Origin: a virus
Direction: 5' to 3' (one strand)
IMG/VR virus record: IMGVR_UViG_3300003890_000033
Coordinates: 18,105-41,631 of that record
Length of the DNA: 23,527 bases
The notes under the pieces are model-generated. The model was not told where the DNA came from and did no database searches. It was given only the letters and a program-made list of their open reading frames with translations. Positions within the stretch are counted from its first letter, which is position 1, and every line of letters begins with the position of its first letter. A program made the translations under genes and the position numbers. This document shows positions 691 through 19,862 of this stretch, one piece after another.

Positions 691-2130
691 ATGTCATTAT
701 TAAACACTAATATTGGTCCTGAAAGAGTTCAGGTATTTGATGTGCCTATTGGTACTGTTCAAATTCCTGGAGTTCCTACTTCAGTGACCGCTTTTCTAAT
801 CGGGACGACTCAAGTTGGCGCACCTGTCAATACCCCGACAAAAGTGACTGATCTAGCCGCTTTTGAAGAGCTTTTTGGAGGACCAGATGAGGTTCTTTAT
901 GAAGCTTACTATGCAGTTCAAGGCTTTTTTGATAATGCCGGAACTGGCAACACTGCTATTATAGTTAATTGTGGTTCAGCGCCTACCGCTGCGGATTTCG
1001 TTGGAAATGCTTCTGCTGGTACAGGTCTTCGTGCTCTTGATGCCGAAGATATTCTCGGACTAGTTTGCGTTCCTGGTCTACCGCTAAATATGGCTTATAT
1101 CGTTCACGCCGCTCTTATTGATTATACTGAAACTGTTCGTGCTGAATTTGGTGCGACTCTTTCAACGTCATACTCACTACTAGCAATGCCAGAAGTTATC
1201 ACTAAAGCAAATACTGATGTACAAGTTATGTCTTTAACTGTTGCGTCTGTTGCTTCTTTAGTTGTGACTTTAAGCGGAACTCCCAACCTTTCCACCATCA
1301 CCGCTGGAATGATTGTTAAAAAAGCTGGAGTTTTCGTTGGCACTATTACTGCTGTAAACGATGGAGCGGATCAATTAACTTTAACGTCAGTTGGCACTAT
1401 TGCTGCGTCTGATACTCTTACTGTTCATGTACCTTCTGCTATTACGTATAAGGATTCTGTTGTTAATAATCCTTCTCGTGTTGCGGCTTGGTATTTTAAC
1501 CCTGTTCTCGTACTAGATCGTAGCTCTTCTGCTGCTCCTGGTGCGGTTATTGCGGTTGATCCTATTGGTCATGTTGCGGGCATTATGGCTCGTATGGATG
1601 CCAATATCAGTATTGGTGGACCTTCGCATGCTCCTGCCGGTATTAAATTTGCTGGTATTGCGGGAATCACTGGTCTTTCACTCACTATTTCAGAACGAGT
1701 GGATGCCGGTCCTCTTCGCTCAGCGTTTATTAACCGAATCACTTCCTTCCCTGGTGCTGGAAATATTATATTTGGTGGATATAGTGCTGGTGGTTCAGCG
1801 GTTACGGCTGATGAACAACTTATTCAGGTTATGCGAACTCTACAATATATTAAAGGTTCACTTGAGCGTGGTCTACGAGGTTTCCTCTGGGAAAACTTCT
1901 CACCGGCTACCCAAGAACAAATTCATCGGGCTATTGAATCATTCCTAAGGAATAACATTCATCTATTCCCGGCTGGATTACCTGAATCACAGCAATTTAA
2001 AGTGGCAGATGTAACCCCCACTCAGGATGATCTAGATGTTGGCCTATTAAAGGTTCGTGTTTTAGTGAAACCTAATAAAGCTGTTCGATTCATTGAAGTG
2101 GCCTTAGAATTCCCATTACCTACGGCTTAA
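691..2130 (+). CDS. Contractile tail sheath protein
   Basis: A 479-residue protein that forms the contractile outer cylinder of the tail. The N-terminus (GVPTSVTAFLIGTT, about residues 27-40) and the stretch ending LFGGPDEVLYEAYYAVQGFF (to about 80) match the usual sheath opening, where a tail protein enters a 'fails to connect unless ring name' region. The middle has WYFNPVLVLD then IGHVAGIMARMDA (about 267-304), the usual 'apW..v.d......PsGhvAGi.Ar.D' signature. The C-terminal domain (about 385-479) has LRGFLWENF, IESFLRNN and a closing strand VRFIEVALEF. Residues about 176-252 look like an inserted beta module between the two conserved parts (see repeat entry). The start has a good ribosome site, GGAGAGG at 676-682. 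Arginine codons are 14 CGN to 2 AGA/AGG, unlike most genes further downstream, which fits high expression. Confidence 0.93.
   Translation: MSLLNTNIGPERVQVFDVPIGTVQIPGVPTSVTAFLIGTTQVGAPVNTPTKVTDLAAFEELFGGPDEVLYEAYYAVQGFFDNAGTGNTAIIVNCGSAPTAADFVGNASAGTGLRALDAEDILGLVCVPGLPLNMAYIVHAALIDYTETVRAEFGATLSTSYSLLAMPEVITKANTDVQVMSLTVASVASLVVTLSGTPNLSTITAGMIVKKAGVFVGTITAVNDGADQLTLTSVGTIAASDTLTVHVPSAITYKDSVVNNPSRVAAWYFNPVLVLDRSSSAAPGAVIAVDPIGHVAGIMARMDANISIGGPSHAPAGIKFAGIAGITGLSLTISERVDAGPLRSAFINRITSFPGAGNIIFGGYSAGGSAVTADEQLIQVMRTLQYIKGSLERGLRGFLWENFSPATQEQIHRAIESFLRNNIHLFPAGLPESQQFKVADVTPTQDDLDVGLLKVRVLVKPNKAVRFIEVALEFPLPTA
1213..1449 (+). repeat. Beta module inserted in the sheath
   Basis: This codes for about residues 175-253 of the sheath. 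Its core, LSGTPNLSTITAGMIV followed by GTITAVNDGADQLTL, aligns by eye with LSGSPDLSTVRLGNVI followed by AVITAINDITDTLTV in the 724-residue protein at 18978-19175. The flanking sheath sequence (LLAMPEVITKA before, NNPSRVAAWYFNP after) would join naturally in a normal sheath, so the segment reads as an insertion in a surface loop. Function is unknown. Confidence 0.65.
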
Positions 2131-2150
2131 TCGGTTAAAGGAGTATAAAT

Positions 2151-2723
2151 ATGGCAAGAAGTTGTGCAGTTGACCCTATTGAAAAATTTCGCTTTTCAGT
2201 ATCTTGGTCTTCTGATGCTGGTTCCGAAGGTACTGCCTTAGTTCGATTAGGCTTTCATGACATTCAGTCACCGAAGCGTACTACGAATAAAGGTACTTAC
2301 CGTGAAGGAATTGATCCTGATATTAACCAGCTATTTGCTGGTCTTAGTAGCATGGAAGATGTCACGCTAAGTCGTGGTGTCGTCATTCAAGATCCGAACA
2401 ATGAGTTCTATAAATGGGCGAGTGCTATTCATAATCCTGGTAAAGGACATGATAGCCGCTTTGCTCTACATGCTCGTCCTGTGAACTCAGGTGCGAATCA
2501 GTACAGAAAAGATATTACTATTAAAGCGCTTGATCGTGAAGGCAATGTTGCTCGCCAGTGGACGCTATATAATGCATTTCCTGTGAATTTCGTTGCGGCT
2601 TCAGATTTTAACGCTGCGGAAGACGGAGAAAAGTCTTTAGAAAGCCTAACGTTAGGCTACGAAGATTTCCGAGAAGAAATTCCCGGTTCAAGTGCTCCTG
2701 TTCCCGTAAGTTCATCTTTATAA
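2151..2723 (+). CDS. Major tail tube protein (T4 gp19-like)
   Basis: A 190-residue protein of the T4 gp19 tail tube family, which stacks as hexameric rings to form the inner tube inside the sheath. It opens with the family-like MARS..DPIEKFRF motif, shared with the two paralogues that follow. It also has the expected features YRKDITIKALDREGNVARQW, then LYNAFPVNF and LESLTLGYEDFREE (about residues 122-178). The place right after the sheath, the strong ribosome site AAAGGAG at 2137-2143, the CGN-rich arginine use (10 of 12) and the terminator right after the stop all mark this copy as the abundant tube subunit. The sheath stop is 20 bases upstream. Confidence 0.92.
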   Translation: MARSCAVDPIEKFRFSVSWSSDAGSEGTALVRLGFHDIQSPKRTTNKGTYREGIDPDINQLFAGLSSMEDVTLSRGVVIQDPNNEFYKWASAIHNPGKGHDSRFALHARPVNSGANQYRKDITIKALDREGNVARQWTLYNAFPVNFVAASDFNAAEDGEKSLESLTLGYEDFREEIPGSSAPVPVSSSL

Positions 2724-2731
2724 TATAATAC

Positions 2732-2776
2732 GAGGGGAAAGGATTGGTTTTTCCCGGTTCTTTCCCCTCTTTTTTT
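2732..2776 (+). terminator. Intrinsic terminator or attenuator after the main tube gene
   Basis: A perfect 10-bp stem, GAGGGGAAAG (2732-2741) with CTTTCCCCTC (2760-2769), encloses an 18-base loop and is followed by seven T (2770-2776). This is a textbook rho-independent terminator. The next gene starts only 11 bases past the T-run and no promoter fits between them, so downstream baseplate genes probably depend on read-through or on a promoter inside the tube gene. It likely sets the ratio of abundant sheath and tube to low-copy parts. Confidence 0.92.
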
Positions 2777-2787
2777 ATTTGTGGATT

Positions 2788-3471
2788 ATGGCAAGAAGCT
2801 CATCTGAAGACCCTATTGAAAAATTTAGATTTAAAGTGGAAATATTTTCCATTGATTTGCTTGCGACTGGAGACTTAAGCCAAAGCGCAGCTAATGCTGC
2901 CTTTAGTGGACTAAGGAATCTTATAGTTCCTACTCTTACTAGAGCAGGTTTTAGTGAAATAGTTCTTCCCGAAGTCACGGTTAATACCATAAGTTATAGG
3001 GAAAATATAGATAATCAAAGATTTAGCAAAGGCCCTGGATTAGTAAAGTACGACCCTGTTGTTTTACGTAGAGGCGCTACTAAAAGTCGGGAGTTGTATG
3101 AATGGTATAGATTAGTAAACAACGATACTTCATTACTAGGAGCAGCACAAGAAATAGGTGGAGACGCTACTGTACCAGGCCAAAGTGAGAATTTTAGAAA
3201 AGAGGTTCTTATAACCTCTATAGATCGAGAAGGTAATACCGTTAAGCAATGGATGCTATTTAATGCATACCCTGCTAAGTATAAAGGCGGTAATGACTTA
3301 AACGCCCAATCAGAAGAAAAGCTAGTAGAAGAATTAACTATTGAATATGAATTCTTTTTAGAACTAGATAGTGGTGGATTGGCAGTTGAATTGGAAAAGG
3401 ATGCGGCTATTGCGGGAGCGAATACAGCAGCTAACATAGCAGCAAAAGTAAATCTACCCTTTACGAGGTAA
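2788..3471 (+). CDS. Tail tube paralogue, probable tube initiator
   Basis: A 227-residue protein in the T4 gp19 tube family. I chose the ATG at 2788 (MARSSSEDPIEKFRFKV) because it aligns with the start of both neighbouring paralogues; a TTG nine bases upstream would add only three residues. Shared features are the N-terminal motif, EVLITSIDREGNTVKQWMLF, then NAYPAKY and LTIEYEFFLE. It is longer than the main tube owing to extra residues near the N-terminus and an alanine-rich tail (about 200-227). In T4 and in Afp/PVC-like systems, extra tube-fold proteins form the first rings on the baseplate, and that is the likely role here. There is no clear ribosome site: the preceding bases are the terminator T-run and ATTTGTGGATT. 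Arginine codons are mostly AGA/AGG (10 of 13). All this points to low expression. Confidence 0.8.
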   Translation: MARSSSEDPIEKFRFKVEIFSIDLLATGDLSQSAANAAFSGLRNLIVPTLTRAGFSEIVLPEVTVNTISYRENIDNQRFSKGPGLVKYDPVVLRRGATKSRELYEWYRLVNNDTSLLGAAQEIGGDATVPGQSENFRKEVLITSIDREGNTVKQWMLFNAYPAKYKGGNDLNAQSEEKLVEELTIEYEFFLELDSGGLAVELEKDAAIAGANTAANIAAKVNLPFTR

Positions 3472-3474
3472 TAT

Positions 3475-4002
3475 ATGGCTAGGCCATCAAGCAAAGACCC
3501 TTTAGACAAATTTAGATGGATTGTAGAAGTAGATGGCTTTAGCAGATTAGGCTTTACCTCAGTAGAAGTACCATCAGTTAGCATTAATGTGAAGAATTAT
3601 GCTGAAGGTGGAAGTCATTTGTTTCCTAGAAAGATTATTGATGGAGTGACATATTCTCCAATAGTTCTTCAAAGAGGAGTTACTTCAGATAGAAGCTTTC
3701 ATGAATGGGCCGCAGGATTCATAGATTTACTTCATAATGTAGACGGAGTCGCAGGTTATAGACGTAACCTAGTTATTAAACATTTAGATAGATTAGGTAG
3801 AGTAGTTAGGGAATATCGTATTTATGATGCCTTTCCTAGCGAATATAAACCGGCTTCAGATTTTGCCGCAGATTCAGATGATACGTACAGTTTAGAAAGA
3901 ATAACTCTAGAATATGAAAGTTTTGAAGTTATTGTTCCTGGACAAGAGAACAATGCATTCAACATTAAAGATTTAGCAAAACGTTTAATTAGAGGCACTT
4001 AA
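3475..4002 (+). CDS. Second tail tube paralogue, probable tube initiator
   Basis: A 175-residue T4 gp19-family protein starting MARPSSKDPLDKFRWIVEV, clearly paralogous to the two genes before it. Conserved features are YRRNLVIKHLDRLGRVVREY, then YDAFPSEYKPASDF and LERITLEYESFEV (about 100-155). It sits 3 bases after the previous stop, with CGAGG (3463-3467) as the ribosome site inside the end of that gene, so the two are probably co-translated. Arginine use is 12 AGA/AGG to 3 CGN, in contrast to the main tube. It most likely forms a ring joining tube and baseplate hub, comparable to T4 gp48/gp54 or Afp5. The exact position in the particle is inference. Confidence 0.82.
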   Translation: MARPSSKDPLDKFRWIVEVDGFSRLGFTSVEVPSVSINVKNYAEGGSHLFPRKIIDGVTYSPIVLQRGVTSDRSFHEWAAGFIDLLHNVDGVAGYRRNLVIKHLDRLGRVVREYRIYDAFPSEYKPASDFAADSDDTYSLERITLEYESFEVIVPGQENNAFNIKDLAKRLIRGT

Positions 4003-4021
4003 AATTTTAATACGAGGAAAA

Positions 4022-4633
4022 ATGAAAAAATGTACTAAATGTTTTGAATTAAAAACTAATGAAAATTTTTACAAAAAGAAAAATAGTTTAAGGTCAGAAT
4101 GTATAGTATGTTCAAAAGCATATAATAAATCGTTTAAAATTAAAAATCCTAATTATTCTAAAAATTATGAAGAGCAAAACAAAGAAGTTATTAAACAAAG
4201 AAAAGCAGATTATTGGCTAAATAATAAAGATAAGTATCAAAAATATAGAGATCTTAATAAAGAAAAATTAAGAATTTATTATAAAAATAGAGCTAGACAA
4301 AAAAGAAAGTCAGATATTAATTTTAGATTGACTTTAAGTTTACGTTCTAGATTGAATAAAGCAATTAAAAGACAACAAAAAGCTGGGTCTTTCATAAAAG
4401 ATTTAGGATGTTTTATAGAAGAATTAAAACAACATCTACAGTCCAAATTTCAACCAGGAATGACTTGGGAGAACTACGGTAAATGGTATATTGATAATAT
4501 TAGACCATTAAGTAGTTTTAATTTAGAAGATAGAAAAGAATTTATTTTAGCATGTAACTATAATAATTTACAACCTTTGTGGGCTAAAGACAATTTAAGA
4601 AAAAGTAATAAAATTTTACAAGAGGAGATGTAA
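4022..4633 (+). CDS. HNH-family endonuclease with degenerate active site
   Basis: A 203-residue protein of the phage HNH endonuclease type, probably a free-standing homing endonuclease gene lodged among the tail genes. The N-terminus is a zinc-ribbon-like CxxC...CxxC (C4, C7, C27, C30), followed by a lysine-rich helical stretch (about 40-120). The C-terminal domain has GMTWENYGKWYIDNIRPLSS (about 146-165) and NNLQPLWAKDNLRKS (181-195). In active relatives the first block reads WHIDHI; here both histidines are replaced (Y156 and N159), each explained by one base change from CAT. The asparagine of NLQPLW and the last motif asparagine remain. The gene is visibly more AT-rich and lysine-rich than its neighbours, which fits horizontal arrival. 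The next gene's ribosome site (AGAGGAG, 4621-4627) lies in its 3' end. Confidence 0.85.
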   Translation: MKKCTKCFELKTNENFYKKKNSLRSECIVCSKAYNKSFKIKNPNYSKNYEEQNKEVIKQRKADYWLNNKDKYQKYRDLNKEKLRIYYKNRARQKRKSDINFRLTLSLRSRLNKAIKRQQKAGSFIKDLGCFIEELKQHLQSKFQPGMTWENYGKWYIDNIRPLSSFNLEDRKEFILACNYNNLQPLWAKDNLRKSNKILQEEM

Positions 4634-4634
4634 A

Positions 4635-5396
4635 ATGTTAGTTATGCTACCAAACGGCTTGCTCGATGGGCAAGACCATTTTAATATAGCTGAGATTGAC
4701 GAATTGCGAGGCAAGCAACAAAACTATTTGGTCGATAAAGAACTAGTAGTCGGAAATATAGGACACTTACCTAAAATTCTAGCGGATATGATTCTTTCGC
4801 TTCAAACGAAAGAAGGAGTTCACTGGAAAGGGGACATGAGTGAAGCTATTTATAAGCTTCCTTCTGGAGATCTAGAAACTATTCTAGTTAAAGTTCGTGA
4901 GAATACTTACGGACCTAAGTTCTATCATGAAGCAGAGTGCCCTCACTGTCAACATATCAATAAAAATTTACGCTTAGATTTAGACAAACTAGAGATTAAA
5001 TATTACCCTTTAGAGCAAATGCTTACTAAAAAAGTTGTGCAATTGCCTAAAGCTAAAGTGGAAGTTGAGCTTAAGCCTATTTACCTTAAAGACCTTTTTG
5101 AGGTTGTTAAGATTACTAAGAATAAGCACGACGCTCTAGTTACTTCATTGATGGCCGTGTCCATCAAGAGAATTGGAGATAACACTAAGATTGATAGTAG
5201 TTCTATCGAAAAGATAACTGCTAGCGATCTAATGCATCTTCAAGAAGAAATGTCAAAGGTTACTTTAGAAGGAAGCATTGATACTAATATTCAAATTGAC
5301 TGCTCCAAATGTGAGAAAGAATTTGAAATTAAGTTGAATTGCTTTGATCCCTCTTTTTTCGACCATACCAAGGGCTCCAAGAGTACGACTATATAA
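4635..5396 (+). CDS. Tail/baseplate assembly chaperone, T4 gp26-like, zero-frame product
   Basis: A 253-residue protein resembling the T4 gp26-like baseplate family common upstream of tape measure genes in contractile-tailed phages. It has two CxxC knuckles, CPHC (102-105) followed by the strand KNLRLDLDKLEIKYYP, and CSKC (223-226) followed by EFEIKLNCFDP. Together these probably bind one zinc. The family acts during baseplate hub and tail assembly rather than as an abundant virion part. The gene lies directly between the tube genes and the tape measure, the classic place of frameshifting tail chaperones, and a perfect slippery heptamer sits at 5354-5360, 11 codons before the stop. The start ATG at 4635 is 1 base after the HNH stop. 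Confidence 0.8.
   Translation: MLVMLPNGLLDGQDHFNIAEIDELRGKQQNYLVDKELVVGNIGHLPKILADMILSLQTKEGVHWKGDMSEAIYKLPSGDLETILVKVRENTYGPKFYHEAECPHCQHINKNLRLDLDKLEIKYYPLEQMLTKKVVQLPKAKVEVELKPIYLKDLFEVVKITKNKHDALVTSLMAVSIKRIGDNTKIDSSSIEKITASDLMHLQEEMSKVTLEGSIDTNIQIDCSKCEKEFEIKLNCFDPSFFDHTKGSKSTTI
5354..5360 (+). promoter_or_regulatory. Probable programmed -1 ribosomal frameshift site (T TTT TTC)
   Basis: In the zero frame the codons are TCT TTT TTC GAC, so the bases form a perfect X XXY YYZ heptamer. The -1 frame is open from 5348, just after a TGA at 5345-5347, and stays open to the TAA at 5552-5554. The site is thus at the very start of the overlap, as in lambda G/GT and P2 E/E'. The shift would join 242 residues of the chaperone to 64 new ones, giving a 306-residue product. 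Confidence 0.82.
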
Positions 5397-5554
5397 GCCA
5401 CGAAGTAGATCTCTTGGATGATTATGTGTTCTTCGGGCAGACATATAGATGGCCTCCTAGTGAGATAGATGCAATGAGATGGTCAGTTAGAAAGACCATT
5501 AAGCAAGCATATAAAGATCATATGTCTAAGGTAAACAGTAAATCAAATGGCTAA
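5360..5554 (+). CDS. -1 frameshift extension of the assembly chaperone
   Basis: This -1 frame codes for 64 residues after the shift, beginning RPYQGLQEYDYISHEVDLL and including YVFFGQTYRWPPSEIDAM and WSVRKTIKQAYKDHM. It has no good start codon with a ribosome site: the candidates GTG 5426 and ATG 5474 would discard conserved-looking sequence. That supports expression only by frameshifting. The pattern of an acidic start, aromatic 'Y.F..Y.W', P..EI and a basic helical end resembles the small proteins found just after gp26-like genes in other contractile systems (DUF6760-like). That resemblance is from memory and weak. It ends inside the tape measure gene (8-base overlap with ATG at 5547), so it fills the apparent 150-base gap and couples the two genes. 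By analogy the extended form should bind the tape measure protein. Confidence 0.75.
   Translation, partial: RPYQGLQEYDYISHEVDLLDDYVFFGQTYRWPPSEIDAMRWSVRKTIKQAYKDHMSKVNSKSNG
5376..5418 (+). promoter_or_regulatory. Candidate stimulatory hairpin/pseudoknot for the frameshift
   Basis: TCCAAGAG (5376-5383) is perfectly complementary to CTCTTGGA (5411-5418), with a 27-base loop, and begins 15 bases after the slippery site. A second short pairing, GGCT (5373-5376) with AGCC (5396-5399), would cross the first and could make an H-type pseudoknot if one base is shared differently. The spacing is longer than usual for a stimulator, so this is only a candidate. Confidence 0.4.
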
Positions 5555-7646
5555 TAAATCTCTTGACATAGTAATAAAAGTTAGAGACGCTGCTACTGAT
5601 AAACTAAGGGAAGTTCAAAAATCCCTTAAAGATACTGGAAAAGCGGCACAAGATGCTTCTACCGATTTTACTAAGTTCAATAGAGTTTTATTCTCTGCTA
5701 CGGCCTTTATTGGTACCTTTCAACGAGCTTTTACCAGTATTGGTGCGAGCATTGAAAAGGGAGCAGAGTTCGACAGACTAAGCACACAATTTGAAAGAGT
5801 TCTAGGTCCAAGAGGAACGTTCTTTCAGAACGTAAAAACTCTAACAGATAACTCTATAGATCAATTTACGGCCATGCAGGAGGCGATTTCTCTTAAATCT
5901 GCTGGCATAGTAAAAAATGGTACTCAAATTGCAGACCTAATTGCTAAAGCTGGTACTGCGGCTAAGATGGCTGGTAAGTCTTCAGAAGAAGGCATTACTC
6001 ACGTATCTAAGTTCTTAAAAGATGGGTCTATTTCTCATCTAGAGTTCTTAAATTTAATATCTAGAACTAATCCAGAGCTACAAGCTCAATTGTCTATTCT
6101 TAAGGCAACTGGCGGAGTTTTAGGCACTGTTATAGAAACTCAACAAAAGCTAAGAATTGGTACGGCTTTACTAGATGCGGCTACAAAAGGATTTTTAAAA
6201 GGGCAACGAGATTTATTAGATGTAGTAAAAGATTTAAAGCAATCCTTTACTTTATTTAGAGCAGAAGTCGGCCTTTTCTTAGGAACCGCTTTAGGTGGAT
6301 TAGTTGATAAAGTAACAGAAGTTGTAACAAAGTTTACTGATTTCTTAGGAAATATCAGAAAAACTGATAAAAACTTCATAACCTTTACGAAAAACGTTAT
6401 TTTAGTAACTTCTGCACTTACAGGTTTTATTGCAGTTTTAGGCACCTTAAGATTAACTTTATTAGCTTTATCTTCTATCGGTATTGGTATTCCTCAATTT
6501 ATAGCTTTAATTGTAGCTGTAGGATTAGCCTTTAAAAATACTGATAAAGCTATTGATGGAGTTATTGGTAAGTTAAAAGGATTTTTTGAAGTATTTCGAG
6601 GGGTTGTACAGTTAATAAGTAATTTAGACCCCGCTACTGGCATTTCTAAGATGGACAAAAGTCTTCATGACTTCTTAAAGAAGCAAGGACTCTTAGAAAT
6701 AACCCTATTATTCGCTAAAATGGCTTCTGTTGTAAAGGCAGTGGTCAAGGATATATCTGAAGCCTTTGATTGGCTAAGCAACAAAATAGGCAAGTTCTTC
6801 GATATGTTAAAGAACTTCCTAGGAGACTTTAAAAGTCTTTGGAGCAATTTTTGGGTGTCTGAATCTTTGACACCAGTTGGTAAGTTTGCTCGTGCTGCTG
6901 CAGTTGTCCTTGGTGGTATTTTAGCATTTAAGGCTATGAAGGGTATTGGTGATCTATTATCCAAAATACCTGTAATAGGTAAACTATTTGGTGGTGGTGG
7001 TTCTAGAGGTGATAGTCCTCAAAATCCATTATATGTTCAAAATGTCAATGGTTTAGGGGGCTTAGGCGCTCTAGATTTTGGCGGAGTAATGGGAGATCTA
7101 GAAAAAGGTAAGCTAGTCAGTACTTTATCTGGTTTAGCTGTAACTTTAGCTAGGTTTGCTCCATTAGCATATTTATTGGCTACCGCTGGTGGTGTAATTC
7201 AAAATATCTTAAACCCTGAAAATGCTCCCAGTTCTGATGAGATTATAAATCGTGGCGTTATAGGTAATTTGATGCATCCTGGCGATTTTGCTTACGCTTT
7301 TGGTAGAGATGTATTAGGAGACATAGCTGGTAATTTATTAGAAAACAGCGTGTTTAATCCTTATAAAACTGCTACCGTTATTCCAAGTATGCCAGAGGAT
7401 AACCAAAAGAAACTAAATATTCTTAATAAAGTTCAATCTGATTTAAGAGCAGTTGATGTCGCTAGAGCAGATTTAATGGTTGATGCTATTGCTAGAGCAT
7501 TTAAACAAACTTCAGACGCTGGTAATAATATTTCATCTAGAGAATGGGTAGATATATTTAAAGTTGCTTTAGATAATTCTGTCGTTCTATCAAATATTGA
7601 TAAAGGTGTTAAGGATAAATCGCTAGGTAGTTCTAGTAGAAGGTAA
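5547..7646 (+). CDS. Tape measure protein
   Basis: A 699-residue protein that sets tail length and occupies the tube lumen until ejection. It starts MANKSLDIVIKVRDAATDKL and carries a helical, coiled-coil-like N-terminal third with KVRDAATDKLREVQKSLKDT. Two very hydrophobic stretches follow, at about 283-309 and 310-329, typical of tape measure proteins. A glycine-rich linker (GGGGSRGDSPQNPLYVQNV, about 482-500) resembles linkers seen in other phage tape measures. The position just after the frameshifting chaperone is diagnostic. At roughly 1.5 angstrom per residue the tail would be about 100 nm, if the whole protein acts as a ruler. The start overlaps the frameshift product by 8 bases. No peptidase or lysozyme motif was seen. 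Confidence 0.88.
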   Translation: MANKSLDIVIKVRDAATDKLREVQKSLKDTGKAAQDASTDFTKFNRVLFSATAFIGTFQRAFTSIGASIEKGAEFDRLSTQFERVLGPRGTFFQNVKTLTDNSIDQFTAMQEAISLKSAGIVKNGTQIADLIAKAGTAAKMAGKSSEEGITHVSKFLKDGSISHLEFLNLISRTNPELQAQLSILKATGGVLGTVIETQQKLRIGTALLDAATKGFLKGQRDLLDVVKDLKQSFTLFRAEVGLFLGTALGGLVDKVTEVVTKFTDFLGNIRKTDKNFITFTKNVILVTSALTGFIAVLGTLRLTLLALSSIGIGIPQFIALIVAVGLAFKNTDKAIDGVIGKLKGFFEVFRGVVQLISNLDPATGISKMDKSLHDFLKKQGLLEITLLFAKMASVVKAVVKDISEAFDWLSNKIGKFFDMLKNFLGDFKSLWSNFWVSESLTPVGKFARAAAVVLGGILAFKAMKGIGDLLSKIPVIGKLFGGGGSRGDSPQNPLYVQNVNGLGGLGALDFGGVMGDLEKGKLVSTLSGLAVTLARFAPLAYLLATAGGVIQNILNPENAPSSDEIINRGVIGNLMHPGDFAYAFGRDVLGDIAGNLLENSVFNPYKTATVIPSMPEDNQKKLNILNKVQSDLRAVDVARADLMVDAIARAFKQTSDAGNNISSREWVDIFKVALDNSVVLSNIDKGVKDKSLGSSSRR

Positions 7647-7648
7647 TT

Positions 7649-8425: not shown

Positions 8426-8432
8426 GGAAGTT

Positions 8433-8750: not shown

Positions 8751-8751
8751 T

Positions 8752-10350: not shown

Positions 10351-10353
10351 TAT

Positions 10354-11172: not shown

Positions 11173-11175
11173 TTT

Positions 11176-11760: not shown

Positions 11761-12173
11761 TGGCAAACATTACTTCAAATGATGAAAGTTTAAAAATAAG
11801 GTTAGGTTCAGACCTAATGTTTCCTATTTCAGGGGATTTTAAGTCAGTAAGCGGATTAGACTTACTTCTTCAAGATATACAACAATTACTACTAACTATT
11901 CCCGGTGAACGAGTTAATAGACCAGATTTTGGATGTAATTTAAGAGATCAAGTCTGGGAAAATATGGATGCTGCAGAAGTTAATGGCGCTGGAGCAATAA
12001 GACAAGCTCTAGAGAATTTTGAACCTAGAATAACTATTCTAGATGTAAACAGCACTTCTAATTACAATACTGGATTAATTACTTTTAATATTCAATTTAT
12101 AGTTAACGACTCTGATAGATCAGTAAATTTAATTTTTCCCTTTAGAGTAGGAACAGCGTTATCATTCGCTTAA
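11760..12173 (+). CDS. Baseplate wedge protein, gp25/gpW-like
   Basis: A 137-residue member of the gp25/GPW family, which initiates sheath polymerisation and triggers contraction. Diagnostic sequence is SGLDLLLQDIQQLLLTIPGE followed by RVNRPDFGCNLRDQVWENMD (about 31-71), including the family's 'l..iPGER..rPdfG' motif. A conserved ALENFEPRITILDV follows (88-101), and then closing strands (107-135). Length is normal for the family. The start ATG overlaps the preceding stop by one base (TAATG), so translation is coupled. The gp6-like gene follows 13 bases downstream. Confidence 0.93.
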   Translation: MANITSNDESLKIRLGSDLMFPISGDFKSVSGLDLLLQDIQQLLLTIPGERVNRPDFGCNLRDQVWENMDAAEVNGAGAIRQALENFEPRITILDVNSTSNYNTGLITFNIQFIVNDSDRSVNLIFPFRVGTALSFA

Positions 12174-12186
12174 TTAAGAGGAAATA

Positions 12187-15100
12187 ATGGCCAATACTAC
12201 AAACAAAGATATTGATTATATAGTTAAAGACTTTAATTCTACTGTTGACGCTCTTGTTACGTTTGCAACAGTGAATTATGGTTCTGATACTAGTGCCAAT
12301 AGACTTTGGACCAATTTCAACGTGGATTCTTTTTCACGAAATTGGCTAGAGATTGTTGCTTATGTGTCTGATCTTTTCTTCTTTTATTTTGATAATCAAG
12401 CTACTCAATCTTATTTGCAAACTGCTACTATCCGTAGCGCAATTAAGAATATAGCTGAGCAATTTGGATATAGTCCTGCTAGTGCTACTAGTGCTTCAGG
12501 TATAGCACAATTTACTATTAATGCTGCTGGGACTGTTCCTAGAGGCTTTAGAGTGAGGGCGACAAACGGTGAAGAGTTCTACCTTACTTCGGATATTGTT
12601 GCTGCTATTGCTGGTACTTATAGCGGTTCAATGCTACAAGGCGTTATCAAAACTGAACAATTTACTTCCCAAGGTCTTCAGAATGAGGAGTTTGACCTCA
12701 TTGGACCAAATGTAATCAAAGATTTGACTAATTTAAATCCACTAGACATTACACCAAAAGTCACGGTAAACGGCAACGCCTATACTTTAGTTGATACGTT
12801 TATCAGAAATAATGGGACTGATACTGCAGCAATCTCAGACTCTTTAGGTAATATCGTAGGCGGTGGTGGTCGGGTATTTACTGTTAATGAACGTCCAGAA
12901 GGCACTCCATTTATTAGATTTGGTGATGGTATTTTTGGAAGAAAGCTCCAACCTGGAGAACTAATCAGTATTTCTTATCGTACTGGCGGCGGAACTGTCG
13001 GTAATATTGGTAAACAAACTCTCACTACTCTTGTTGATTCTAGTCCCATTGTTACGTCAGTTACAAATGATGCTGACTTTTCAGGTGGTGCTGATGAACA
13101 AACTATTGAGCAATTAAGAGAGCTTATTCCTGCTAGCTTGCGCACTCTAGAAAGAGCAGTAGCAGAACAAGATTATTCTGATATTCTAATCGCTAATTTC
13201 CCACAAGTTTTAGCTGCATCTACAGAAATAAATAATGATGATCCTGCGGTGGACATCAATATTTATGTAGTGCCGTCAGCAAATACTATTACTAATATCA
13301 GCGATAATGCTGTATTAAAGAATACTCTTACTAATTTTATTGATAGGCGTAAAACTGTCACAGTACAATTCCAAATTTTAGATGCCTTTGGTGTAGATAC
13401 CTTAGTATCTGTAGAAATTTTCTTAGATGATACTACTAGTAAAAGTACTGTACTCGAAACCGTTCAATCTTCTATTGAAGACTTCTTTAGTTTAACTACT
13501 GGTGGAGTTAATGGGGCTGGTATAGGATTTGCAGAAAACGTCCTATTAAAAGATATATCAAATTTAGTAGAATCAGTCTCTGGAGTCGAACGTTTTGAAA
13601 TAAAACGATTGACTTATAGACCTCGTATAGAACAAGATATAGTAGAACTAGTTACTAGCTATAATAATAGCAATGTTACAGTATTCCCTAATGTGTCTGA
13701 ATCTGAATGGTTGGTTGGGGCAGCAGGAAACGTTTCAGAAAATCCTGGAGATATCTTATTTAGTAATAGCGGACTAGTATCTTATACTTATACCAGTCTA
13801 ACAGGTGTTGTTCAATATAGTACTTTTGTAAATTTATCTTCAGTAGCTCCTGGAGACTATTTTCAAGATGGGGCAGGGGCTCAATTTATAATTCTAGCCG
13901 TAGATAACAGCAACAATAATTTGACTTTAAATTCAGGACTCACGGTTAATACTACTGTTAACGATAGTACCGATGGCTCTGTTGTAAACGGTTCCACTTC
14001 ATATAAGTCTTTTAAAGTGTTTAAAAAGACCAATGCCGTGGCTACAAACCTATCAATTAATAGTATTACTGATAACAATTTAGATCTTTCAGTAAAAACT
14101 GGTATAGGTGTTGCTATTGCTCCCAGAACACTATTAGATAACTCTAGTATTTTTATTCCTAGTGAATATGCTACTGGAGAATTCTTCTTAGTAGACGGAG
14201 CTAGTAATATATGGACTATTTTGAGTAATGATAGCAATACTATCAATACTTCAATTACTGCAGTAAATGACGCATCAGTAACTAGTATTACGGCAGGATC
14301 TTATAGAATTGTTAAAAACTTTAGTAATAAGCAGGTGATTTTCAATGATAGTATTTTCACTATTCAATACAATAGTCATAATACCATATTTTCTACTGGA
14401 GCACAGTTTGGTAATATTGGCACTATTGGCGACCCATTTCAGTTAAGTGAAACTCAATCTAATATTGGAAATCTAGGAATTGATTTAGATCTAATTTCTT
14501 ATGATTCTAGTACTGGAAGAATTAAGTTAAATGGTTCTCCAGACCTAGCTGGTGTCAGCGCTAAATGGGATCTAGTAGATTCTAATGGACAAATTTTTAA
14601 CGTTGTGGGTATTGATAATAGAGCACAACCGTTTACTTTGTATGATATAGGAAACCAAAGCGATCAGTTTACTTTAACAGGAACTGGTTTAGGTTTACAA
14701 GCGGCACAAGGATTTCAAGTTCCAAGTACTGAAACTTATTCAGTAGTTAGTTTATGGCTAAAACGTGAAGGTAATATTACTGGAAACGTCGTTGCTAATA
14801 TAACTACTGATTCAGGTGGATTACCTAACTTGGGTGGTATTATTGCTACTTCAAATCCTATAGCAGTTTCTACTATAAATAATTCATCTTTTGCAGAAGT
14901 TACTTTCTTTTTTACGACACCTCCTACTTTGACAGCTTCTACGCAATATCATTTAGTATTAAGTAGCGATGCAGCTTATTCAGCTTCTGAAGCAAGCGGC
15001 GTCACGGTATTCAGTAATACTGGATTAGTTGGGTTTACTTATAGTGCTATAACAGGAACTGTTCAATATGCTGCAGCAGTAAACTTATCTTCAGTACTAC

Positions 15101-15678
15101 CTGGAAACTTCTTTCAAGATGGCGCAGGAAATTTATTTAGAATCTTGGCTGTGGATGATGCAGCAAATGTCTTAACTTTAGATGTAGGACTTTCTGTTAA
15201 TAATACTGTTAATGATCCTTCTGATGCTTCTGTTCTTAAAAATGATAGGGTATTTATAGCGATCGATAATAGTGCTCCCTCTTATGCAAATGGGGGATTC
15301 TCTCAATATGACGGATCTACTTGGTTTGCAGTAGCAAATACAGACGCTGTATTCTCAGTAAAAGGCACAAAAAATATTACTGTAAATAGTAATTTAACTC
15401 CTACTATAGAGCCTGGAGCAACATTATCAGAACGATATTATGATGATGATCAAGAGATATCGTTCGTACTAGGTGTGTCTGGAGGTTTAGTAACTTCTGC
15501 GACAGATGTTAATGCTTTAGGTAGAGGAACCGTATCAGGTAATCCAAATAGTGATGTAGATAATTTTGTATTTAGAACTTCTAGATACGCTGATGATATT
15601 GTCAATTTAAGGTTAAATGAAATACCTCAAATTGTTTCATCAGATATAAGCTTATCAATATTTGGTGGAGTAGATTAA
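12187..15678 (+). CDS. Baseplate wedge protein, gp6/gpJ-like, strongly extended
   Basis: An 1163-residue protein whose first 480 residues form a baseplate-J/gp6 core (DSFSRNWLEIVAYVSDLFFF, then FIRFGDGIFGRKLQPG, LRELIPASLRTLERAVAEQD and LIANFPQVLAAS). The wedge ring is built from gp6-like proteins, with gp25 and gp7-like partners encoded on each side. It is much longer than P2 gpJ (about 300 residues) or T4 gp6 (about 660). The C-terminal 680 residues hold two near-copies of the beta module (525-600 and 942-1017), a divergent third (771-823), and a beta-sandwich (about 830-1060) that resembles a common adhesion-type domain but is split by the second module. The ribosome site is AAGAGGAAAT (12176-12185). 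The stop overlaps the next start. Confidence 0.88.
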   Translation: MANTTNKDIDYIVKDFNSTVDALVTFATVNYGSDTSANRLWTNFNVDSFSRNWLEIVAYVSDLFFFYFDNQATQSYLQTATIRSAIKNIAEQFGYSPASATSASGIAQFTINAAGTVPRGFRVRATNGEEFYLTSDIVAAIAGTYSGSMLQGVIKTEQFTSQGLQNEEFDLIGPNVIKDLTNLNPLDITPKVTVNGNAYTLVDTFIRNNGTDTAAISDSLGNIVGGGGRVFTVNERPEGTPFIRFGDGIFGRKLQPGELISISYRTGGGTVGNIGKQTLTTLVDSSPIVTSVTNDADFSGGADEQTIEQLRELIPASLRTLERAVAEQDYSDILIANFPQVLAASTEINNDDPAVDINIYVVPSANTITNISDNAVLKNTLTNFIDRRKTVTVQFQILDAFGVDTLVSVEIFLDDTTSKSTVLETVQSSIEDFFSLTTGGVNGAGIGFAENVLLKDISNLVESVSGVERFEIKRLTYRPRIEQDIVELVTSYNNSNVTVFPNVSESEWLVGAAGNVSENPGDILFSNSGLVSYTYTSLTGVVQYSTFVNLSSVAPGDYFQDGAGAQFIILAVDNSNNNLTLNSGLTVNTTVNDSTDGSVVNGSTSYKSFKVFKKTNAVATNLSINSITDNNLDLSVKTGIGVAIAPRTLLDNSSIFIPSEYATGEFFLVDGASNIWTILSNDSNTINTSITAVNDASVTSITAGSYRIVKNFSNKQVIFNDSIFTIQYNSHNTIFSTGAQFGNIGTIGDPFQLSETQSNIGNLGIDLDLISYDSSTGRIKLNGSPDLAGVSAKWDLVDSNGQIFNVVGIDNRAQPFTLYDIGNQSDQFTLTGTGLGLQAAQGFQVPSTETYSVVSLWLKREGNITGNVVANITTDSGGLPNLGGIIATSNPIAVSTINNSSFAEVTFFFTTPPTLTASTQYHLVLSSDAAYSASEASGVTVFSNTGLVGFTYSAITGTVQYAAAVNLSSVLPGNFFQDGAGNLFRILAVDDAANVLTLDVGLSVNNTVNDPSDASVLKNDRVFIAIDNSAPSYANGGFSQYDGSTWFAVANTDAVFSVKGTKNITVNSNLTPTIEPGATLSERYYDDDQEISFVLGVSGGLVTSATDVNALGRGTVSGNPNSDVDNFVFRTSRYADDIVNLRLNEIPQIVSSDISLSIFGGVD
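13759..13986 (+). repeat. Beta module copy 1 in the gp6-like protein
   Basis: Residues 525-600. The core is YTYTSLTGVVQY, then VNLSSVAPGDYFQDGAGAQ and FIILAVDNSNNNLTL. It matches copy 2 at 15010-15237 at about 60% of residues by eye (roughly 48 of 76), and the gp7-like copy at lower identity. The unit is about 75 residues and predicted to be all beta strands. Confidence 0.88.
14497..14655 (+). repeat. Divergent beta module copy 3 in the gp6-like protein
   Basis: Residues 771-823, YDSSTGRIKLNGSPDLAGV followed by LVDSNGQIFNVVGIDNRAQPF. It keeps the pattern TG.I..., xPDL..V, a VDSNG.xF.VVGID turn and a final strand. It is shorter and more diverged than copies 1 and 2. Confidence 0.55.
15010..15237 (+). 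repeat. Beta module copy 2 in the gp6-like protein
   Basis: Residues 942-1017, with GLVGFTYSAITGTVQY, then VNLSSVLPGNFFQDGAGNL and FRILAVDDAANVLTL. It sits inside a beta-sandwich whose halves (LTASTQYHLVLSSDAAYSA before; VFIAIDNSAPSYANGGFSQY after) would join naturally without it. Confidence 0.88.
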
Positions 15679-17672
15679 TGGCTTTAATTAGGAATTTAAC
15701 ATCTTCCCCTTTTACTTCTAATCAAATTAGTTTAAATTGGGACCAACCCTCAGGATTTGGGTCAAGTGACGATGAAATTATCGTTACTAGGACTATTACT
15801 CATTTTCCTATGGAGTTGTATAATACATCATTTCCTAATAAGGCAACTGACTCTAGACCTATAGAAATATTCAGAGGAAGGGTTATAACGGGTTTAGACG
15901 CAGGTACTGTCTCAGTGTCAATGAGCACTTTAACAGATACTTCAGCGGCTTTTCCTACTAACCCTTCTCTCAAGGGTAGATTACTACGAGATCAAAATAG
16001 TCAGGTATTCAAAATTTTAAGTAATACCTCTACTAGTATTACAGTAGAAACAGGTACTCCTGCTGTTGGAAAATATGTAGTTTTAGCAGATTTTCCTTCA
16101 GAAGTACGTATTCAACAAAATTTTGAATTGGATATTAGAACTACAGCAAACTATAATTCTATTTCAAATTTAGTGGAAAATGTTGGCGGCATCCTACAAA
16201 TAGTTAACTTTGATGCCAACGAACTAGATAATTTAATCTTTAGAGATGGTGCTGGAACTAGATTTATCATAAAGAATAATAACAATAGTACTATAAACTT
16301 CTACGAAAATTTCAACTTTAGAAATGAAAATTTAGTAACATTTACTTATAACACAGTAACTGGAGTTATACAGTTTGACAGCGCTGTTGATTTGAGTAAT
16401 GTTTCTGCAGGAGATATCTTTAAAGATACTTCTAATAATAAATACGTTATTCTTACTGTTAGTGATGCTATGGATTTTATAACCATAGCGGTAAATAAAA
16501 ATGTGGACACTACTGCTCCTACTTTAAGTGAACATGGAGCTATAGTTGCTCCTGAAGTTCCTGTAGTTGGTTCAGGTATGGCTATTTTTAATAGTTATAC
16601 TAATAGTCAGTTAAAACCATATATTGATACTTATAAAACAGAAGCGGAAGCCTCCTCAAGAACTGGTTCTGGTTTATTAGATGACACTTTTTATTACTAC
16701 ACAGGATTTATTAAAAAAGTAGGAGTTAATGTTGCACAAGCAGATTACGCTACCTACGATAGTGCTAGTTCAACTCAAACAGTAGCTTTAAGTTTAAGAA
16801 ATCGTCAATTTGGAGATTTACTTTATTCTTTATGGCCAAGTTTACATAGAGAATTAGATACTACAGAAGATTTATATGATTTAATGCAAGTATTTGGATT
16901 TCAAATGAGTGAGATCCATTCTTTGATTGAAACTTATAAATTACAAAATACACACACAGTCTTTACAAATGCTTTAGAAGCTCTAGCAGATCAAACTGGA
17001 CTACCTTCAGTTAGTTATGCTATTGGAGCAGATACTCTACGAAGAATATCAAATGATATGATTTCGGCGTGGAAACTTAAAGGTTCTAAAGAAGGTATTG
17101 CGTTATTTATTAGAATTATTACTACATGGGATGTTACAAATGGTACGGGAGATTCCAGTGGATCTATTGAAGACTTCCTACCAAATATTGAAGCTCTACG
17201 ATTTTTTAGCGCTAGTTTGGGAAGTTTAAATACTAGAATAACTCAAACCAGCCCTTTTGTAACCGGAGGAAGATTTGCTAGATCTTTACCAGGAGTAGTA
17301 ATTCCAGGATTCTTTTCTTTTAGAGAATTCGTTATAACCATTCCAAATGTTGCTCTTTATATTGGAGAAAGCACTGCTTATACAGTTTCAAGTGATACTA
17401 CTACGATGACTGATAGTGCTGCCAATTTTGGAACAGATGATAGTTTAGTTGGAAATTTCTTATTGCCCAATCAAGAAGAAGTAAATGATCTTTTTGAAAT
17501 TGTAGCAAATACGGCTACTACAATCACGGTAAAAGGCACTATCATTAATAGAACGATAGGCGGAAATTATGCCGTATTATCTCCGCTAAATGCAAATAGA
17601 TTCATAATTTTGAACCGATTATTGCCAGGTTATATCCCAGTTAAAACTCGTGCTGGGTTCATATTTACCTAA
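15678..17672 (+). CDS. Baseplate wedge protein, gp7/gpI-like
   Basis: A 664-residue protein. Residues about 375-485 match the P2 gpI / tail protein I core: GDLLYSLWPSLHRELDT, then MSEIHSLIETYKLQ, LEALADQTGLPS and LRRISNDMISAWKLKGSKEG. It partners gp6 and gp25 in the wedge, and directly follows the gp6-like gene as gpI follows gpJ. The N-terminus (SNQISLNWDQP...DDEIIVTRTITHFPMEL) looks like a fibronectin-type strand unit. One beta module occurs at 215-290. Two related units of another flavour (TDTSAAFPTN, then GRLLRDQNSQVFKILSNTST at 80-138; MTDSAANFGTDDSLVGNFLL then IVANTATTITV at 568-637) flank the protein. Translation is coupled to the upstream gene by TAATG. Confidence 0.83.
   Translation: MALIRNLTSSPFTSNQISLNWDQPSGFGSSDDEIIVTRTITHFPMELYNTSFPNKATDSRPIEIFRGRVITGLDAGTVSVSMSTLTDTSAAFPTNPSLKGRLLRDQNSQVFKILSNTSTSITVETGTPAVGKYVVLADFPSEVRIQQNFELDIRTTANYNSISNLVENVGGILQIVNFDANELDNLIFRDGAGTRFIIKNNNNSTINFYENFNFRNENLVTFTYNTVTGVIQFDSAVDLSNVSAGDIFKDTSNNKYVILTVSDAMDFITIAVNKNVDTTAPTLSEHGAIVAPEVPVVGSGMAIFNSYTNSQLKPYIDTYKTEAEASSRTGSGLLDDTFYYYTGFIKKVGVNVAQADYATYDSASSTQTVALSLRNRQFGDLLYSLWPSLHRELDTTEDLYDLMQVFGFQMSEIHSLIETYKLQNTHTVFTNALEALADQTGLPSVSYAIGADTLRRISNDMISAWKLKGSKEGIALFIRIITTWDVTNGTGDSSGSIEDFLPNIEALRFFSASLGSLNTRITQTSPFVTGGRFARSLPGVVIPGFFSFREFVITIPNVALYIGESTAYTVSSDTTTMTDSAANFGTDDSLVGNFLLPNQEEVNDLFEIVANTATTITVKGTIINRTIGGNYAVLSPLNANRFIILNRLLPGYIPVKTRAGFIFT
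15915..16091 (+). repeat. Related beta unit, N-terminal, in the gp7-like protein
   Basis: Residues 80-138, with TLTDTSAAFPTNPSL, then GRLLRDQNSQVFKILSNTST and SITV. It shares the 'L.G..L.D.nsq.F.I.sNT.T.ITV' pattern with the C-terminal unit at 17379-17588 and, more weakly, with the tail-wide module. Confidence 0.5.
16320..16547 (+). repeat. Beta module copy in the gp7-like protein
   Basis: Residues 215-290, LVTFTYNTVTGVIQFDSAVD followed by LSNVSAGDIFKDTSNNKYVI and LTVSDAMDFITI. It aligns along its length with the two gp6-like copies, LV.FTY...TG.iQ...aV.LS.V..Gd.F.D..nn...IL.V.da...iT. Confidence 0.82.
17379..17588 (+). repeat. Related beta unit, C-terminal, in the gp7-like protein
   Basis: Residues 568-637, TTTMTDSAANFGTDDSLVGN followed by FEIVANTATTITVKG. 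It pairs with the N-terminal unit of the same protein at 15915-16091. Confidence 0.5.
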
Positions 17673-17687
17673 TAAAAGAGGGCGTTA

Positions 17688-19862
17688 ATGCTTAAGTTTA
17701 ATACTATTCGTACCGCAAGATATCTACGAAGTCGATTCGTAGAGGGTAAATTCTTACTTGCGTCAGAAGGTACTGACATTCAGCTTGAGATTATAGACTT
17801 ACTTCGACGTACCATTAAATCAGATTTAGGTAATATCTTCATTGGGGACGCTTTTAAATTAGAACGTATTTCAGCTACACAAGTATTAGTAAGAAAAGGA
17901 GACGCTTGGTATGAAGGTCTTCCTTTTTCTATGCGTTCTAGTAAAGATGAACTAATTTCTGGCTCAGTTCTTACTAACGGCATTTTACCTCCAGGAGTAA
18001 CTATAACTGATTACTCTACTGGAGAAGGTAAGTTACTAACTTTTAGTATAGGTACTACTCCTGCCAATACGTACAAAATAATCATAACTGCAAGTGAAGA
18101 AGCAGTTACTGATGTTCAAGATCCGTTTTTAAAGAATGTTACTATTACCGAGTCTACTGGCCAAAAGATTCGTTTAAACTACAAAATCAATGTAGTTTTA
18201 AATTCCATTCAAACCGAAACTCCTATTCCATATATGGGAGAAACTGGAGCTTATAACGCTGCCAATTTAATTAATCAAGTTATGATTACTCCTACGGCTA
18301 GTGGAAATGGTGAATTGCTTGCTACCAATCTTATTGCTGGCTCAAGTATTGACGGTCGTGATTTAGAATTAGTTTTCAGAAATGATCCCGCTATTGGTGG
18401 TGGAAACCCCATGCCCATTACTACAGCACATCAAGAAGCTTTTTTTAATGGTAAGTTAATTGATAGTCGTGGCACTGAGTATCATATTAATGCTATCTTT
18501 TTAGATGCAGATACTACTAAAACTGTTATTCGTATTGATAAAGAATTTGGTCAACCAGATCCTCAAATCATCAATACTGTCCCTTTTTATATTAAGAAAA
18601 AGGATGTATATGTTGCTGATGATAGTTCTGGAGTGCCTAATGGATTCTTATTTCTACCTTTAGGAACAATTGAATGGACTTCTAGTGGTATTACTCACAA
18701 TTCTAAAGTAGTTGATAGTAGATCACGTATTGTTTTAGAAAAAGATTTTCAAAATATCTCTAATCAAAAATTTGATATTAAAGTTGTTTTAGGATCAGGA
18801 ACAGTACGTTTTAATCAAAGTGGCAGCCCTTTAGCTTTAAATTGGACTGGACCTTTCCAATTAATTAATCCTCATAGCTCTTTGATTCAAACTATTGCGT
18901 CAAATAATGTTCCAATGGTAGATCTAGGTTCATTAGCTTATGAAATGAATTTTTCTGGCGGAGCAATAGAACGTGGAAATCTTGCTGTTACAGTTTCTTC
19001 TGCTGGAGCTAATACAATTTTATCTGGATCTCCAGATTTATCTACAGTTAGATTAGGTAATGTTATTCAAGACTCTGGCGGCAACGTAGCTGTTATAACA
19101 GCTATAAATGATATAACTGATACTTTAACTGTCAATCCTTCACTAGTATCTACAGGGGCAGCGGTAATTTATAAAGATTCTTTTGGTCCTGGTTACGTAC
19201 CTTCAACCGAAAATACTTTTATTCTAGCTACTAGAAAAGGTAATTTCGTTTATGGGTCATTTCCTGTGGCCACAACCGATTTTTCAAGCGATATACGTGG
19301 TATAGAAGCCGAACCTCTGCACGATAGAATAGGCACTTTAACTGATGTTATTGGTGATGAACAAGAAGATCGTTCATTATATATGCGTTCAGCCAACACT
19401 GTATCGTGGACTGGTGGAAACAGCTTTGTTTGGACAGCAGATATTCTAATTCAAATAATTAATACAAAAAGTGGTACTGTAACAGAACATTCAATACCTG
19501 CAGGTTCTTTTACCTTAATTGATGGTGAAAGTGTTTGGGTATCTATTAATAGAACCGCCGCATCAGAAGTTTTGACTTATAATAAGTCTTCGATCACTCC
19601 TATTCCTGCTCAATCACAAGCGAATAAAGATGTATTAGTTTTATTCCGTAGGGTAGGTTCTGATCTTCAAATCCCAATTTTAAAACAAATGATAGTGTCT
19701 CCTAATACAGCTTTTTACCTAGGAGCAGTAGCGGGTACGTCATTCGATCTAACGCAAATACTAACCTCATCAGAGCAAACCATGGTAATCAATGGAGTTG
19801 TTAGTAACGTTAAAACCGGCAGTGTTTTAATTAGTAATGACGGTAATATACTTTTAGCTTAA
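17688..19862 (+). CDS. Large structural protein near the fibres, unknown
   Basis: A 724-residue protein that I do not recognise as a named family. It lies between the wedge and fibre genes, so it is probably a baseplate-periphery or fibre-network component, in the place of T4 gp8-gp10 or an Afp13-type adaptor; this is inference. The N-terminus (RTARYLRSRFVEGKFLLASE, then TDIQLEIIDLLRRTIKSDLG) is helical with many charges. A middle unit (about 225-303, FNGKLIDSRGTEYHINAIFL) looks like a loose beta module. A clear module copy is at 431-496. The rest is strand-rich. The start has a ribosome site AAAGAGG (17676-17682). The 15-base gap upstream and the CGN-rich first codons suggest a translation unit of its own. 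Confidence 0.72.
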   Translation: MLKFNTIRTARYLRSRFVEGKFLLASEGTDIQLEIIDLLRRTIKSDLGNIFIGDAFKLERISATQVLVRKGDAWYEGLPFSMRSSKDELISGSVLTNGILPPGVTITDYSTGEGKLLTFSIGTTPANTYKIIITASEEAVTDVQDPFLKNVTITESTGQKIRLNYKINVVLNSIQTETPIPYMGETGAYNAANLINQVMITPTASGNGELLATNLIAGSSIDGRDLELVFRNDPAIGGGNPMPITTAHQEAFFNGKLIDSRGTEYHINAIFLDADTTKTVIRIDKEFGQPDPQIINTVPFYIKKKDVYVADDSSGVPNGFLFLPLGTIEWTSSGITHNSKVVDSRSRIVLEKDFQNISNQKFDIKVVLGSGTVRFNQSGSPLALNWTGPFQLINPHSSLIQTIASNNVPMVDLGSLAYEMNFSGGAIERGNLAVTVSSAGANTILSGSPDLSTVRLGNVIQDSGGNVAVITAINDITDTLTVNPSLVSTGAAVIYKDSFGPGYVPSTENTFILATRKGNFVYGSFPVATTDFSSDIRGIEAEPLHDRIGTLTDVIGDEQEDRSLYMRSANTVSWTGGNSFVWTADILIQIINTKSGTVTEHSIPAGSFTLIDGESVWVSINRTAASEVLTYNKSSITPIPAQSQANKDVLVLFRRVGSDLQIPILKQMIVSPNTAFYLGAVAGTSFDLTQILTSSEQTMVINGVVSNVKTGSVLISNDGNILLA
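18360..18596 (+). repeat. Possible divergent beta module in the 724-residue protein
   Basis: Residues 225-303, including FFNGKLIDSRGTEYHINAIF followed by LDADTTKTVIRIDKEF. The 'G.lIDS.G...xI.aI..D...T.i.I' pattern resembles the module, but the flanks do not align well. Confidence 0.3.
18978..19175 (+). repeat. Beta module copy in the 724-residue protein
   Basis: Residues 431-496, TILSGSPDLSTVRLGNVIQD followed by SGGNVAVITAINDITDTLTV. It is closest to the sheath insertion: both have LSG.P.LST...G..I......V..ITA.ND..D.LT. Confidence 0.75.

Follow-up and report, generated by a model that had tools for sequence, protein, structure and literature searches.

The question raised by this locus is why a similar beta-rich segment should recur in several structural proteins of one phage tail that are otherwise unrelated. 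The stretch of DNA analysed, hereafter the window, comprises 23,527 nucleotides and corresponds to the tail region within a virus record of 41.6 kb (G000:C1:18105-41631), in which PHROG and Pfam profiles identify a sheath, three tube-like genes, a tape measure, hub proteins and a Baseplate_J wedge. The sheath and the gp6-like protein of the window recur, identical in sequence, in a 114.9 kb IMG/VR contig. The proteins that host the segment are the following, in window coordinates.

3..671, plus strand: C-terminal part of a 481-residue protein encoded upstream of the sheath, whose copy of the segment lies outside the window.
691..2130, plus strand: sheath protein of the tail, 479 aa, with one copy (match to PHROG 23, tail sheath, E=4e-20).
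12187..15678, plus strand: gp6-like wedge protein of the baseplate, 1163 aa (aa 14-536 match PHROG 6, baseplate wedge, at E=2.5e-30; Baseplate_J, E=4.7e-14).
15678..17672, plus strand: gp7-position protein, 664 aa, encoded 3' of the gp6-like gene in every relative compared.
17688..19862, plus strand: 724-residue protein with one copy, whose relatives range from 669 to 1656 aa.

The sheath profile of the window also matches solved sheaths of contractile injection systems (E=4e-23). Within the gp6-like protein, the conserved wedge part covers approximately aa 14-536, and all three copies of the segment lie in the C-terminal extension. The 664-residue protein has no gp7 family match in Pfam or PHROG and is named here by gene order alone. 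No match was obtained for the 724-residue protein in Pfam, PHROG and NCBIfam, nor for the 481-residue protein in PHROG, NCBIfam and PDB.

The sequence-only reading of this DNA had proposed that a single small domain was copied into several tail proteins, with five clear copies and three weaker ones. All five clear copies are in frame where that reading had placed them, and a profile HMM built from them, run against all 267 stop-to-stop frames of the record, finds each one. When each copy is omitted in turn, the remaining four recover it with E-values of 2.6e-7 to 3.2e-13. The copies of the module, as the segment is called below, and the one borderline candidate are listed here.

1213..1449, plus strand: module copy in the sheath, aa 175-253 (leave-one-out E=2.6e-7).
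13759..13986, plus strand: module copy gp6a (five-copy, leave-one-out and iterated profiles).
14494..14652, plus strand: divergent module copy gp6m (55 bits with the iterated profile), present at the same place in complete gp6-like relatives.
15010..15237, plus strand: module copy gp6b (profiles; AlphaFold pLDDT 90.3 with 51 homologous copies).
16305..16556, plus strand: module copy of about 84 aa in the gp7-position protein (leave-one-out E=3.2e-13).
18978..19175, plus strand: module copy in the 724-residue protein (leave-one-out E=1.5e-9).
18366..18503, plus strand: borderline, possible divergent copy in the 724-residue protein (profile-profile score 16.6).
G000:C1 ~17846-18016: module copy in the 481-residue protein, outside the window (profile search), which the relatives also have (18 copies aligned).

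The last of these lies about 90 bases upstream of the window start. Copies gp6a and gp6b are recovered by leave-one-out profiles at E-values of about 1e-11 to 1e-12 and share 61-63% of residues, in agreement with the figure of about 60% put forward from the sequence. The closest kin are the gp6a/gp6b/gp7 trio and the sheath/724 duo, and either set also reaches the other; the trio profile alone retrieves the 724-residue copy at 5e-5 and, weakly, the sheath copy at 0.016. As a null, the best score in 200 shuffled proteomes was 11.6-15.2 bits, and reversed proteins reached at most 4.3 bits. The three weaker copies fared differently: the one originally placed at 14497-14655 is gp6m and is confirmed, part of 18360-18596 remains borderline (it scores 16.6, and the best of 25 column shuffles 15.2), and 231-458 was rejected, as it is matched neither by the iterated profile nor by profile-profile comparison. 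Two module-like stretches at aa 99-125 and 185-210 of the gp7-position protein score 20.2 and 18.5, where shuffles reach no more than 17.2. A BLAST hint of extended homology between gp6 and gp7 upstream of the module dissolved on inspection of nine gp7-position proteins.

Single pairs such as sheath versus gp7 are not significant, which could suggest that there is no real family but a chance likeness of short beta-hairpin motifs. The leave-one-out E-values, the shuffle null, the recurrence in relatives and the matching predicted strands make such a coincidence extremely improbable, and the leave-one-out profiles together with the 200 shuffles led to its dismissal. On the strength of these profile comparisons, a single autonomous domain of about 75 residues is present as paralogous copies in at least five structural tail proteins.

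The predicted structures are in line with a common fold. The gp6b copy, modelled by AlphaFold with 51 homologues, is all-beta, with seven or eight short strands (pLDDT 90.3). A second model, of the sheath aligned with sheaths alone, is poor outside the module and the N-terminal domain (overall mean 59.6) but gives the module a pLDDT of about 86-95, with strands at 177-188, 191-194, 208-211, 214-223, 228-231 and 242-247. When mapped through the sequence alignment, these strands match those of the gp6b model, so that in the two copies modelled the order of strands agrees and no difference of fold appears. The sheath model also gives 65-column matches to chains of phages 7-7-1 and Milano, which may fall in the module or in the core.

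The suspicion that the unit is not a plain Ig fold is borne out, as the best 50 PDB matches of the module model include no Ig-named protein, but comprise F1/V-ATPase barrels and three phage tail proteins, and the Pfam matches are sub-threshold. Foldseek matches to the PDB are weak. The N-terminal barrels of the F1-ATPase alpha and beta subunits are the best by E-value (E≥0.036, probability up to 0.94), a resemblance only given TM scores of 0.37-0.49, and a phage tail-tube chain reaches TM 0.54 (E>0.001). In the BFVD viral library, the matches are phage tail proteins with TM scores up to 0.62, among them a baseplate wedge subunit at 0.61, all with E>0.001. From these weak matches and from the strand pattern, the module is predicted to be a small beta barrel. 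Family searches place it nowhere convincing: in Pfam, Big_5 is matched by 3 of 52 copies (best E=0.0011); the 52-copy profile searched against PDB sequences yields only the Homer EVH1 domain at E=0.03, taken as chance; and the links to PHROGs are weak and lead to PHROGs of unknown function (best E about 3e-4).

How widely the module occurs was addressed by sheath and gp6-like searches of IMG/VR, which returned about 20 related contigs, all uncultured; no sheath relative was found in GTDB genomes. Module copies are present in all 18 related contigs scanned and, where a contig spans the relevant genes, they occupy the 481-type protein, the sheath, three sites of the gp6-like protein and the 724-type protein. 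The 115 kb contig with the identical sheath has seven copies, all within tail genes, and across four contigs of 97-115 kb the only module match outside tail genes is one of 15.7 bits in G010, in a frame of 83 aa, and is probably due to chance. One contig, reached solely via a profile of the 481-protein copies, has one module copy each in ORFs of 482, 480 and 1656 aa and three in an ORF of 1194 aa, six in all; its sheath-sized, gp6-sized and large distal ORFs thus carry the module, as the site pattern predicts. When single copies served as tblastn queries against 50,697 phage records, two of them had no match at E≤0.01 and another two had none below E=2.

The distribution of the copies over sites and genomes carries a record of their history. 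In a tree of 52 copies, grouping is by site and not by genome: it takes 7 label changes, where at least 6 are needed and shuffles average 30. The 481, sheath, 724, gp6m and gp7 copies each form a single group, and gp6a and gp6b nearly do so. Because the copies group by site, the main dispersal is older than these lineages.

Later events are also apparent. The gp7-position module, a unit of about 84 residues, occurs in the window and in the relative L020 and is cleanly absent from seven other relatives, whose flanks align well on both sides. The gp6 tree makes sisters of the window and L020 (95/96), and the nearest kin of the gp7-position copy are gp6a and gp6b. The simplest reading of this sisterhood and kinship is a gain by copying from gp6, unless the root, on which the direction depends, lies on that branch. 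A fourth gp6 copy, shortly upstream of the last one, occurs in a further relative, L035 (G003). In the sheath, the module tree unites L028 with L031 (100/99), whereas the tree of the sheath body unites L011 with L031 (98/98) and the body rejects the L028+L031 grouping (p-AU 0.015), a conflict that points to exchange of the module between genomes. The synonymous changes of two close pairs cluster in the module, with 27/54 module codons against 91/383 elsewhere in the first (p=1e-4) and 27/67 against 69/393 in the second (p=7e-5), which suggests replacement by recombination and not just rapid evolution of the protein. One of the two pairs, L030/L032, has also diverged in a second patch of the sheath, so that recombination there would extend beyond the module. 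The module thus shows the behaviour of a promiscuous mosaic domain: homologous copies in unrelated virion proteins, presence or absence as a unit, and exchange between genomes, for which two further pairs are suggestive. To judge from these comparisons, the gp7-position gain, the fourth gp6 copy and the sheath exchange indicate that the spread of the module is ongoing.

The position of the sheath copy can be described more closely. In the sheath-only model it lies between a core strand at 161-164 and a helix at 250-258, and in matches to solved sheaths it falls between profile positions 131 and 263, a gap that Streptomyces injection-system sheaths bridge with a shorter stretch. The insertion is located in the outer N-terminal alpha/beta part of the protein and not in the C-terminal core. 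The module is the most variable 75-residue window of the sheath, with 43% identity against 70% for the remainder.

Other domains have entered the same region. A domain X of about 120 residues is found at aa 94 in the sheaths of L014, L015 and L033, and a different domain Y, of about 130 residues, at the module start in those of L016 and L017. Three to four copies of X occur in the gp6-like protein of L025 (best E=2e-23), which makes it a second domain common to sheath and wedge proteins of the clade. Its sheath and gp6 copies are at most 46% identical, and so the sharing of X is not recent either. Judging by contig names, L025 and L033 come from the same metagenome.

Such permissiveness invites the proposal that the spread is neutral or selfish, a well-folding domain being tolerated in exposed loops and copied by recombination with no function of its own. 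That the sheaths of other relatives accept unrelated domains, X and Y, at these sites or close by fits this idea, as do the high variability of the module and its presence or absence at the gp7 position. However, the module is retained at the same sites in all relatives having the relevant genes, and dN/dS between sheath copies is low (0.07-0.26, with synonymous sites saturated in most pairs), well below 1. We consider neutral spread unlikely.

If the module has a function, its sequence offers some indications of what kind. The 52 copies are acidic (431 Asp+Glu against 178 Lys+Arg) and nearly devoid of Trp and Cys, with 4 Trp in 4356 residues. The conserved positions (Leu, Gly, Ile/Val and Asp) are mostly core hydrophobics and turn Gly or Asp and look structural. 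No ligand-site signature and no conserved polar surface patch was found in the 52 copies. Nor do these copies present the conserved aromatic platform of a carbohydrate-binding module: conserved aromatic positions fall in predicted strands and are often aliphatic instead. The near absence of Trp and the lack of a conserved polar patch argue against a shared sugar-binding site, whereas the high variability, the acidity and the choice of sites fit exposure of the module, which we infer to be displayed outward on the tail, for decoration or contact. Adhesion to mucus or capsule, as suggested by the sequence-only reading, stays a conjecture.

Contacts within the virion offer two other accounts. In the wedge of Anabaena phage A-1(L), one copy of an insertion domain sits in a cleft of the hub, while the other holds the long tail fibre (PMC10966104). 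The modules could similarly act as structural clamps that touch each other or neighbouring subunits (sheath-sheath, wedge-hub) and stabilise the virion without any external ligand, as the A-1(L) insertion domains do (PMC10966104), and retention at the same sites in relatives fits such clamps. Yet a tight interface would not usually show what the module shows, namely the lowest conservation in the whole sheath and exchange between phages. The gp7-position copy is, moreover, dispensable in most relatives, and clamping seems possible but not probable. It could also be that tail fibres or other appendages fold back along the sheath and the baseplate and dock on the modules. The A-1(L) long fibre is held by the wedge insertion domain with an arm in a sheath groove (PMC10966104), and one module present on the sheath, wedge and distal protein could serve as a repeated handle. 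With no conserved surface common to sites that are about 15-40% identical, and no fibre partner identified, docking appears a rather remote prospect.

Altogether, the explanation that we favour, with a probability of roughly 0.6, is that of a paralogous barrel domain, anciently dispersed and later gained and exchanged, that serves an external decoration or contact role. In this model, the domain would have been copied, in the ancestor of an uncultured myophage clade, into sites tolerant of insertions: the strand-to-helix crossover of the sheath N-terminal domain, the C-terminal extension of the gp6-like protein (three times), the 481-residue protein and the 724-residue distal protein. It would thereafter have been inherited site by site, with the later gain in the gp7-position protein, the fourth gp6-like copy in one relative and the exchange of the sheath site among phages. 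On the outside of the tail, the module may make weak multivalent contacts with the cell surface or with polysaccharides, the main alternative partners being neighbouring virion parts. Weak multivalent surface contact is the first-choice role, at a likelihood well under even odds. The lack of a ligand-site signature and the low dN/dS weigh against the favoured explanation. A broader version is tentative and on balance doubtful: the exchangeable domain would form a common exterior coat over the whole tail, from the sheath-adjacent neck-side protein through the sheath and the wedge to the distal parts, and the tail surface would evolve by copying and swapping of cassettes within and between genomes, with domain X following the same route.

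Several features of this system have precedents. The promiscuous domains described in phages come mostly from fibres, capsid decoration and tube ends. Phage Ig-like domains are small beta domains found in several unrelated virion proteins, exposed where this is known and variably present. The module resembles them as a small beta domain of variable presence across unrelated virion proteins, but it is not recognisably Ig, and a single genome carries it in its sheath, its wedge and its sheath-adjacent protein at once. Published sheath structures carry inserted or divergent domains away from the tube (PMC11915804, PMC10457771): domain III of the Mu sheath extends outward (PMC11915804), and the InD of the XM1 sheath is inserted in the NTD (PMC10457771). 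Like these, the module is an extra sheath domain that differs between phages; unlike them, it is homologous to domains that other tail proteins contain. Its place in the sheath is aa 175-253 and not aa 94, the site of domain X in L014, L015 and L033. In the parts of Smug et al. 2023 (PMC10684548) drawn on here, domains common to different functional classes are described as recently exchanged, with tail and baseplate proteins as hot spots; the mosaicism reported there concerns tail spikes, fibres, baseplate and endolysins, and nowhere does the text use the word "sheath". Compared with the mosaicism they describe, the present case involves one domain common to the sheath, wedge and other tail genes within one genome.

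Promiscuous virion domains were thus already known. What is new, within the scope searched, is the module family itself and its joint presence in the sheath, wedge, sheath-adjacent and distal proteins of one tail, together with natural events of gain and swapping. A well-supported profile is now available to annotate an otherwise dark group of tail proteins, and the natural cases of presence, absence and swapping make the function of the module directly testable.

Stretches of the pattern 'G..l.D....F.I.sNT.t.itv', similar to a shortened module, occur in the gp7-position protein, and the first two of them score slightly above the shuffle null.

Window 15972-16052 (+): shortened-module-like stretch
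Window 16230-16307 (+): shortened-module-like stretch
Window ~17380-17600 (+): shortened-module-like stretch, C-terminus

Between the sheath and tape-measure genes, three genes in a row (window 2151-4002) match the tail-tube family PHROG 4542. They are followed, before the tape-measure gene, by a gene (window 4022-4633) whose small product is rich in Lys, contains CxxC pairs and, judged by eye, resembles a free-standing HNH-type endonuclease. Near the 3′ end of the window, the 699-residue protein (window 19882-21981) contains a C1q-like stretch with a sub-cut-off Pfam match (E=0.0045) and also has PHROG matches of unknown function. The long protein that follows (window 21996-23525), which carries regular repeats (TDLAEGSNLYYTDERVDDRV...) and matches the structural protein PHROG 697, is incomplete, its gene being cut by the window end. 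At the opposite edge, two undetermined bases (G000:C1:18103-18104, on the source record) lie inside the 481-residue gene, immediately 5′ of the window start; the counterpart of this gene in contig L005 reads through.

Other domains are found in contigs of relatives. An unrelated domain, Y (~130 aa), is located at the module start in two sheaths. Sheath aa 94 is the insertion site of a second domain, X (~120 aa), in three relatives (L014, L015 and L033). Domain X is also present in the gp6-like protein of L025, as three to four copies in tandem.

L016 sheath, aa 176-319: domain Y
L017 sheath, aa 176-300: domain Y
L014:10280-10640: domain X, sheath (further sheath carriers L015, L033)
L025:11771-13105: domain X tandem copies, gp6-like protein
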